In this document: in pieces, positions 25,350 to 54,100 of the stretch
Position numbering within the stretch: position 1 is the first letter of the stretch
Layout: each line of letters opens with the position of its first letter
Source of the DNA: Thalassotalea nanhaiensis
GTDB taxonomy: Bacteria; Pseudomonadota; Gammaproteobacteria; Enterobacterales; Alteromonadaceae
Direction: 5' to 3'
Length of the DNA: 64,000 bases
Assembly (NCBI RefSeq): GCF_031583575.1
Contig: NZ_CP134146.1
Coordinates: 2,728,001-2,792,000, forward strand
Notes under the pieces: model-generated
What the model was told of the DNA's origin: nothing
What the model saw: the letters and a program-made list of their open reading frames with translations, nothing else
The model's database searches: none
Position numbers and translations under genes: made by a program

Positions 25350-25440
25350 TTTAAATTCCTCTGGGGTTAAGCGTTCATACATTCCATATTTCCGACCTAT
25401 TGTTACCATCAAGCTGGTAACAGGCACCCCGGAATATGTT
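25350..25440 (-). promoter_or_regulatory. rpsB leader RNA with stem-loop (candidate S2 autoregulatory site)
   Basis: The 5' leader holds a perfect stem GTTACCA/TGGTAAC at 25402-25421, about 55 bases before the start codon. A purine-rich stretch and the AGAGGAA ribosome binding site follow. In E. coli the rpsB-tsf operon is repressed by S2 binding to its leader, so an equivalent is expected here. The sequence shows only the hairpin; the regulatory role is inferred. Confidence 0.45.
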
Positions 25441-25598
25441 TGCCGAATGTATGTGAGTTTAATATTAAATTGTGCGAATAATTTCGCATCAAAATTGCTA
25501 AATATTTAGCGTTTGTCACCTCAAAGCAAAATGGCTTTTTCAGTGAGCGGCGTTTTATACCACTTTTGAGGTTAAAAATAAAGGAAAAACTGCATTAA

Positions 25599-30513: not shown

Positions 30514-30732
30514 GTTAATAGCTGCGATACGTAATTAGACAAACCATTTCATCATCCCATCATGCTTTTGAGTGGGATCTCCTTCAGTAATAGAGTGCTT
30601 ATAAAGCTTAGAATTGATTTCTTTGTAGAGCCACAGTATACGGCAGGAGGTCCCTGACATCGCTACTGCTCTTCAGGGATGACGACGTACTTTTTCAAAG
30701 AATGTGTAGAACTCTTATTCGTTCTTACCAAA

Positions 30733-52496: not shown

Positions 52497-52579
52497 GTCT
52501 GCTTAAGAAGCCCTTTTGTGAAGTTCAATAAATGCAATTGTTGCGTTTTTTTCAACGGCTGCTGCTCGCTCTTTATAAT

Positions 52580-52768
52580 CTTTTAGTCCTGAATTAAACC
52601 ATACTTATTTAGTTCAGGTCATGTGCCTGCTTCATACGAATAACTCGCTCAGAACAACTTGTATGTTTACTCTTTTAGCTTCGATGTTGCAGGTACTACC
52701 AAGCTCTATAACGAATACTCAGGGCTCGCTTCAAACAGCTCATTATATTGATTTCGAAGAGCCTTGGT
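52580..52768 (+). ncRNA. Candidate bridge RNA of the IS110 element
   Basis: Three consecutive stem-loops are visible. The first pairs 52588-52598 with 52608-52618 (11 bp, one wobble). The second has an outer stem 52623-52630 with 52689-52696 (8 bp, one wobble) around an internal loop and a small apical stem (52652-52656 with 52664-52668). The third pairs 52698-52707 with 52758-52768 (10 bp, one bulge). The second loop carries presumptive target guides at 52644-52649 and 52670-52677. The third carries donor guides at 52717-52726 and 52742-52747. They match the flanks and the element ends respectively. Size and layout agree with the roughly 177-nt bridge RNA of IS621. Transcript ends are guesses. 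Confidence 0.75.
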
Positions 52769-52792
52769 TCTCCTGACTTTACTATGAGGAGA
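52769..52792 (+). promoter_or_regulatory. Hairpin covering the transposase ribosome binding site
   Basis: TCTCCT at 52769-52774 is perfectly complementary to AGGAGA at 52787-52792, and the latter is the only good ribosome binding site for the transposase ATG at 52799. The hairpin starts directly after the third bridge-RNA stem. It could keep transposase translation low; this is inference from base pairing. Confidence 0.55.
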
Positions 52793-52798
52793 TAGCAC

Positions 52799-54040
52799 AT
52801 GACTACGAAACAAAAACCAATATTACACATTGGTATTGATTGGGCAACCAAGAAACACGATGTGTGTATTCAGCTACCCGATGGAAGTCGTTCATTCGTT
52901 GTTGTTGATAGTTCACCAGAATCTGTCGATGAATGGATTTTAAAGCTACATAAGCAATACAAAGGTAATATTCATGCGGCCGTAGAGCTATGTCGAGGAC
53001 CGATTGTTTATGCATTACAGAAGTATGATTTCATCACCATATTTCCAATCAATCCTGCCATGCTTGCCAAGTACCGTTCAGCATTTTCGCCAAGTGGTGC
53101 TAAAGATGATCCCACGGATGCTGAAATTGCATTGGGTTTAATGATCAATTATCCAAAACTGATCACGCCGTTGAAATTGGAAAGTGAGGATATGCGTAAA
53201 CTCGCATTCTTAGTCGAACAACGTCGTCGGTTTGTTGAAGATAGGCGGCGGTTTGCTAATCGATTAAATAACACGTTAAAACAGTATTACCCTCAACCAC
53301 TTAGCTGGTTCAGTCATCGTGATACAAAATTATTTGCTGACTTCATATTACGATGGCCAAGTCTTCAAAAATTACGTCGAGCTCACGAATCAACTGTCCG
53401 ACAGTTCTTCTTGGAGCACGGTGGTAACGCAGTAACATTGCTAGAAAAACGCATAGCCTCAATCAAAGAGTCAACTCAACTGACAGACGATAAAGCCGTC
53501 ATTGATACTCATGAACTGCTTAGTTCGACGCTAGTTAAACAGCTTCATACCGTCATTAAATCTATTAAAGAATATGATGTTGAGATAGCACTTATTTTCA
53601 AAGAGATGCCCGATGCTGATTTGTTTAAATCGTTACCAGGAACAGGCATATGTTTAGCGCCCAGATTACTGGTCGCTATGGGAGAAAATCGATCTCGTTT
53701 TGACACAGCATCAGAGATTCAAATGTACGCAGGTATAGCCCCTGTAACAGAACGAAGTGGCAAAAAATGTTGGGTTCACTGGCGTTGGCAATGTTCAAAA
53801 TTTCTCAGACAATCATTCATTGAATGGGCGGATAGATCTATATATCAGTCATTCTGGGCGAAACTGTATTACGACCAACAAAGAGCCAAAGGAGGCTCTC
53901 ATCAAGCCGCTGTTCGGAGTTTAGCTTTCAAATGGGTACGTATATTATTTCGCTGTTGGAAGTCGAAAACGCCTTACTCAGAGAGTAGATATTTGCAGGC
54001 TTTGAAAGATAGAAACTCACCATTGATTGCGAATATTTAG
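52799..54040 (+). CDS. IS110-family transposase (DEDD/serine recombinase)
   Basis: A 413-residue transposase. The N-terminal RuvC-like domain has Asp14 (GIDWATKKHDV), Glu63 (AAVELCRGP), Asp104 and Asp107 (KDDPTDAEIAL), the DEDD tetrad of the family. A coiled-coil middle (residues about 130-270) leads to the C-terminal Tnp domain with LPGTGICLAPRLLVAMGENRSRF and APVTERSGKK, where Ser320 is the likely nucleophile. The protein looks intact, so the element may be active. Confidence 0.95.
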   Translation: MTTKQKPILHIGIDWATKKHDVCIQLPDGSRSFVVVDSSPESVDEWILKLHKQYKGNIHAAVELCRGPIVYALQKYDFITIFPINPAMLAKYRSAFSPSGAKDDPTDAEIALGLMINYPKLITPLKLESEDMRKLAFLVEQRRRFVEDRRRFANRLNNTLKQYYPQPLSWFSHRDTKLFADFILRWPSLQKLRRAHESTVRQFFLEHGGNAVTLLEKRIASIKESTQLTDDKAVIDTHELLSSTLVKQLHTVIKSIKEYDVEIALIFKEMPDADLFKSLPGTGICLAPRLLVAMGENRSRFDTASEIQMYAGIAPVTERSGKKCWVHWRWQCSKFLRQSFIEWADRSIYQSFWAKLYYDQQRAKGGSHQAAVRSLAFKWVRILFRCWKSKTPYSESRYLQALKDRNSPLIANI

Positions 54041-54068
54041 TTGACTGAAGGACTCAGGGCGTGAAAGA

Positions 54069-54100
54069 GACCTTAACCTTTTCAATAAGTTGAGGTCAAA
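54069..54100. repeat. Copy of the TTAACCTTTTCAGTA repeat next to the IS right end
   Basis: GACCTTAACC through AAGTTGAGGTCAAATT matches the other copies (30733, 55386, 57173) with a few substitutions. The bases before it, back to 54062, are the right flank of the IS110 insertion. Other copies are preceded by CGCTCTTAGGA instead. Confidence 0.6.

Follow-up and report, generated by a model that had tools for sequence, protein, structure and literature searches.

A probable bridge RNA encoded at the left end of an insertion sequence of the IS110 group found in dispersed palindromic repeats of Thalassotalea nanhaiensis

Insertion of IS110 elements into dispersed palindromic repeats has long been known (PMC1525189); ISPpu9, ISPpu10 and ISPa11 reside in dispersed extragenic palindromes, as does the element described here, in other hosts and other repeats, and the 2006 study, in the sections drawn upon here, treats target choice without a guide RNA. 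For IS621, a member of the IS110 group, an RNA situated in the left end of the element was described, with a 5′ hairpin, a target loop, a donor loop and four guides, along with a circle-junction promoter and insertion in palindromic repeats (PMC11208160, PMC11208158); our element resembles it in all these features. The ISEc21 seekRNA and ISMch6 (PMC11187229) offer further likenesses: an upstream non-coding RNA, a promoter formed by joined ends, no target duplication and natural redirection between relatives. The target of ISEc21 is reported to be linear and located in IS3-family genes (PMC11187229), whereas that of our element is a dispersed palindrome.

The window, i.e. the whole analyzed stretch of 64,000 nucleotides, sits in a chromosome of 4,311,067 bases. 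The insertion sequence occupies positions 52574..54064 of its forward strand (all features given below are on this strand unless noted) and is present in the genome in four copies, identical over 52574-54063 (compared by script) and at 54064 (compared by eye); therefore, it has probably moved recently. Its recombinase of 413 aa (52799..54040), longer than the 328-residue chain in IS621, matches Pfam DEDD_Tnp_IS110 and Transposase_20 with 87.4 and 56.8 bits and NCBIfam NF033542 with 160.6 bits, all above the cut-offs; the two Pfam domains place it in the IS110 family. Residues D14, E63 and S320 stand opposite conserved positions (by eye), and D104 and D107 were assigned by spacing only. A weak match of a TIGR-Tas endonuclease model to 52799-54037 (22.3 bits against a cut-off of 100) is as expected of distant kin. 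The arrangement of the IS1111 group, with a guide RNA 3′ of the gene, was not found: the RNA is upstream, and 24 bases separate the stop codon from the element end.

Judging by sequence, the 5′ non-coding end of the element is very probably (about 0.93) the bridge RNA, or seekRNA, of an element of the IS110 group. The RNA 52586-52776 folds with minimum free energy of −51.4 kcal/mol (z −3.77; as low in none of 200 shuffles) into a 5′ stem-loop (52588..52618), a target-binding loop (52624..52695) and a donor-binding loop (52698..52768), the three structures and the order that a preliminary description of this DNA had claimed and that the homologues bear out as well; the longer RNA 52586-52820 has z −4.12. 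In a structure alignment (A1) of 29 relatives the consensus comprised 36 pairs, 18 of them with compensatory change. Pairing was seen in 95.6% of cells (86.3% in shuffles), and 119 cells had changes on both sides (41.4 in shuffles), with neither value reached in 500 shuffles; when partner columns were slid by 1-3, pairing fell to 31-44%. A covariance model built on 21 homologues, none of them from the clade of the window, matched the RNA core at 52616..52777 with 116 bits (E 1.5e-26), the next-best match in the window having 14.4 bits; among the 150 of 1,548 first-look candidates scored in the whole genome, the matches with E <= 0.001 were the four element copies. Thus, the fold, the covariation over 29 relatives and the match of an out-of-clade model uphold the identification of the RNA made in the preliminary description. 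Rfam at gathering thresholds did not report the RNA; its sole match in the window was a t44 RNA at 25366-25474 on the reverse strand (51.1 bits).

The relatives and the covariance model also indicate a closing helix, predicted to enclose both loops, with the 5′ arm at 52618..52623 and the partner at 52772-52777. Across relatives four of its six pairs show both-side changes, and a single pair of the six cannot form in the window; we found no mention of such a helix for IS621 in the portions of PMC11208160 and PMC11208158 that we drew upon.

The ends of the element were fixed by empty repeats. The hairpin arm GACCTTAACCTTTTCA occurs in the genome 18 times (with at most one mismatch), four times adjoining the element and 14 times in an uninterrupted repeat. 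Nine of these 14 read exactly TCGCTCT[T/A]ANNAGACC, four variants (L045, L056, L060, L061) likewise have T followed by T/A there, and in the remaining one (L058) the site is on the opposite strand. All four insertions split the repeat exactly between TCGCTC-T[T/A] and ANNAGACC: left flanks end in ...TCGCTCTT (three copies) or ...TCGCTCTA (one), right flanks start with AAGAGACC (two copies), AGGAGACC (one) or AACAGACC (one). A whole-genome search for TCGCTCTWANNAGACC gave 10 exact sites and seven with one mismatch, against two for the reversed pattern. The right flank of copy L003 equals the uninterrupted copies L048 and L050 along the entire printed flank; therefore, the exact join is target ...CTCTT, element TATAATC...GCGTGA, target AGGAGACC. 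It also follows from the empty repeats that TGA (54062-54064) of 'TGAAAGAG' is the element's own end, and that the left boundary had been misplaced: 52573 is the last base of the flank and 52574 the first of the element. Copies L001 and L002 have ~550 bases of right flank in common (54065 to ~54614; 84-100% per 50 bases) and no common left flank, which could mean either that a module next to the repeat was duplicated or that copies recombined with each other.

The same insertion geometry was seen in a relative (L158, 56.6% identical) on plasmid AP022422.1, placed between GTGTGCCAGA and AGCGGACG; its right flank is present in 119 plasmid records, and the three other plasmids fetched all read unbroken GTGTGCCAGAAGCGGACG. 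This plasmid copy and the one on NZ_LR890179.1 (L159) have a common right flank and differing left flanks, a pattern that suggests a rearrangement at the element.

Guides were compared with flanks across relatives, with loci located by RNA anchors and right ends by CTCAGGG. Of 77 loci scanned, 18 had no usable left junction (12 without an RNA anchor, six without an assigned left end); the remaining 59 gave 55 rows after merging of equal guide/flank rows. Weak or fragment loci were skipped (L023, L024, L031, L034, L037, L039), L033 and L036 gave no match, and L030 was left out as having the same sequence as L005 (by eye). The scan of viral contigs found no relatives there, and in a phage collection of 10 records the best match was 26.7% identical.

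The left target guide CTCGCTC (52644..52650) equals the left target, positions 1-7, in the flank (52565..52571); the preliminary description had located this match correctly and made it too short. The right target guide CTCTT (52670..52674) pairs with AAGAG in the right flank (54065..54069), a target seen in the copies and in the empty repeats; copy L004 has one mismatch to it. All eight pairs formerly proposed between the right guide and TGAAAGAG (54062-54069) exist, yet three of them are made by TTA (52675..52677) with the element's own TGA end, an arrangement that may resemble the handshake guides of IS621. Accordingly, the predicted target ACTCG-CT-TAAAAGAG gives way to NTCGCTC-TW-A[A/G]GAG, with AACAG used once.

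With shuffles that ignore relatedness, left guide and left flank agreed at 5.96 of 7 bases over all 55 rows (4.07 shuffled), at 6.38 in the 34 rows of group A (4.06), at 6.42 in 24 rows with one row per distinct guide (4.06) and at 5.29 in the 21 rows of group B (4.48); in each case none of 10,000 shuffles was as high. Examples are TGTGCGC (L064), GATACG (L067), TGAGCGA (L072), CACCGAC (L077), GTGCCCC (L079) and TCGGCCC (L017). The right guide, under the same kind of shuffle, matched the flank at 4.54 of 5 bases by Watson-Crick pairing (37 rows; 3.43 shuffled) and in group A without G-U at 4.41 (27 rows; 3.76), both with 0/10,000; with G-U allowed in the same 27 rows the signal was weak (4.56 against 4.38; 222/10,000), and group B showed no variation of the right guide among rows. 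Thus, the agreement is strong for the left guide and moderate for the right one. Homologues lacking the stems, or with flanks that do not covary with the guides, had been named as evidence that would speak against a bridge RNA; the homologues retained both, with poor left-guide fits in L062 (4/7), L080 (5/7) and L098 (5/7). In the nearest relative with both ends (L005, protein 76% identical) guides and flanks have changed together: left flank ATGGCAC with guide TTTGGCAC, right flank AATTG with guide CAATT. On the sequence evidence this is natural re-aiming, as reported for ISMch6. The relative in genome G012 of a genus mate appears, when compared by eye, to be identical to the sequence in a public Thalassotalea MAG contig (L030 and L005).

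One could argue that the 5′ region serves mainly as a structured leader of the recombinase mRNA that controls its translation, and that the protein itself recognizes the palindrome. Folding predicts that a hairpin at 52768..52792 (52768-52774 with 52787-52792) covers the ribosome-binding site, and a hairpin of this kind appeared in six of six leaders folded; the longer fold (52586-52820) pairs the start codon too, and leader control was reported for ISPpu9 (PMC8450116, as far as the part drawn upon goes). Such a leader would explain neither the match of loop bases to the flank of the individual locus nor the joint change of the left-end sequence and its complement, and we consider it very improbable as the chief role. 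The region could act both as a leader and as a bridge RNA. The ribosome-binding-site hairpins in L005, L062, L008, L090 and L070 are of other sequence (predicted, with no shuffle control). Also, GTCATGTGC (52618-52626) is complementary over nine bases to GCACATGAC (52795-52803), which contains the start codon.

The donor guides of the bridge RNA could be read at both ends of the element. The left donor guide ACTCAGGGC (52717..52725) equals the left donor at 54052..54060, one base beyond the match between 52717-52724 and 54052-54059 that had been recognized before; this agreement was observed in the window alone. The right donor guide ATTATA (52742..52747), also recognized before, is complementary to TATAAT at 52574-52579, and 58 of 59 loci have an exact 5-base complement no more than 45 bases past CTCAGGG, a raw count with no chance control. 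Variants TATGG/CCATA and TATAA/TTATA were seen; the locus without a complement is L115, and the first complement detected in L006, L063 and L082 lies earlier than in other loci.

The preliminary description had placed the core dinucleotide at CT (52569-52570), a reading that was dropped on the evidence of the empty repeats. The core, positions 8-9, is TT in the target (52572..52573; TA in copy L004) and GA in the donor (54063..54064): GA is retained at each of the four right junctions, and T followed by T/A at each of the four left ones. IS621 has a strong preference for CT on the target side as well as on the donor side (PMC11208160, PMC11208158); the identical CT core that marks the IS621 subtype is absent from this element. 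In group A, whose 32 loci include the four copies of the window element, the two junctions have the same core at four loci and unlike cores at 28. The right-guide base opposite position 9 pairs with the donor core at 32 of these loci and with the target core at 20; for the base opposite position 8 the counts are 31 and 26; the L004 row of this comparison is unreliable, its automatic right-guide offset being wrong. In group B (20 loci) the target core is CT and the donor core GT, so that T is common in 20/20, position 8 differs and no cores are equal. The left core is demonstrably target-derived in the window's genome and in L158, and is assumed to be so in other loci, where empty-looking sites have varied bases at the core place, in line with this assumption.

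It is conceivable, though we would not bet on it, that this branch recombines without a shared core: UU of the right guide would pair with the donor core (GA, AG, AA), so that the product would be checked instead of the target core and the target core would be largely free, and folding of the guide RNA and masking of the recombinase message may exclude each other. The closing-helix arm 52772-52777 does share bases with the ribosome-binding-site hairpin. In the portions of PMC11208160, PMC11208158 and PMC11187229 drawn upon and in the titles surveyed we found no description of a free core. An equally doubtful alternative is that the unlike cores are not a property of the enzyme, having been matched at insertion and then mutated or replaced by mismatch repair. 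Post-exchange repair of mismatched bases was suggested for IS621 (PMC11208158, in the part drawn upon), and L158, the plasmid copy for which an empty site is known, has GA as target core and donor core alike. The constancy of the junction cores in the four copies of the window element speaks against such a change, as does the absence of a GA core from all 14 uninterrupted repeat copies of the genome.

TATAAT (52574..52579), the right donor, could also serve as the -10 box of a circle-junction promoter. The putative -35 box TTGACT (54041..54046) comes to lie 18 bases from it only when the element ends are joined, which creates a sigma-70-like motif. TTG was present at the best spacing (16-18 bases) in 45 of 53 loci, and the -35 box scored on average 3.49/6 in these 53 loci against 2.58 at other spacings; the match to the -35 consensus is poor in group B (2-3/6). 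The motif fits the life cycle as published.

The conserved structure, the covariation of guides and DNA, the empty sites and the promoter motif can be read from the DNA; for transcription, binding, circle formation and cutting we rely on analogy to IS621 and ISEc21. Excision would join the element ends into a circle and thereby form the promoter, which would make an RNA starting near 52586 to be held by the recombinase as the bridge RNA. The target loop would pair with both strands of the repeat, CTCGCTC with the repeat's loop and CTCTT with the start of the 3′ arm, while the partners of the donor loop would be CTCAGGGC and TATAA at the joined ends. With strands exchanged after position 9, the element would come to lie between TCGCTC-TW and ANNAGACC.

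The target repeat of this genome is a dispersed imperfect palindrome, its best copy being GTCTGCT-GTTCGCTCTA-AGCAGAC (L054); the left guide reads the loop of the palindrome and the right guide its 3′ arm. Six or seven of seven arm pairs are found at nine of 24 TCGCTCT[A/T][A/T] places, the 24 including two filled sites and chance hits. A[A/G]GAG is present at three of four insertion sites and in three of 14 uninterrupted copies (Fisher P 0.083), which is only suggestive of a choice among repeats by the right guide. GAGCGA, the reverse complement of TCGCTC, is in the left target of seven relatives (L007, L008, L072, L075, L078, L090, L091), and the genome of the window has 13 occurrences of GAGCGANNAGCRGAC, which fits the other strand of the repeat; two branches may thus read opposite strands of one repeat family.

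An overlapping second inverted repeat, GACCTTAAC...GTTAAGGTC, follows the target palindrome (in the window at 30731, 54069, 55386 and 57172); its copies are clustered in the genome, often 1-3 kb apart. Group B (20 loci among L082-L112, e.g. L107; ~50% identity), with right guide TAACA, inserts at ...CT / TGTTA in 19 of 20 loci and at TATTA in L095; its target flanks have what we take to be the look of integron attC sites. The window's target repeats were considered as attC sites as well, a reading dropped in view of the R-box pattern.

Systems of this kind have been described before; the modest variants seen here, a loose core and a closing helix, merit the attention of specialists. IS110 bridge RNAs can be programmed to guide the insertion of DNA. 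In this branch dozens of relatives have been re-aimed in nature and have targets that can be read, those of one group being attC-like in appearance, and the core constraint that limits IS621 insertion may be looser in it.
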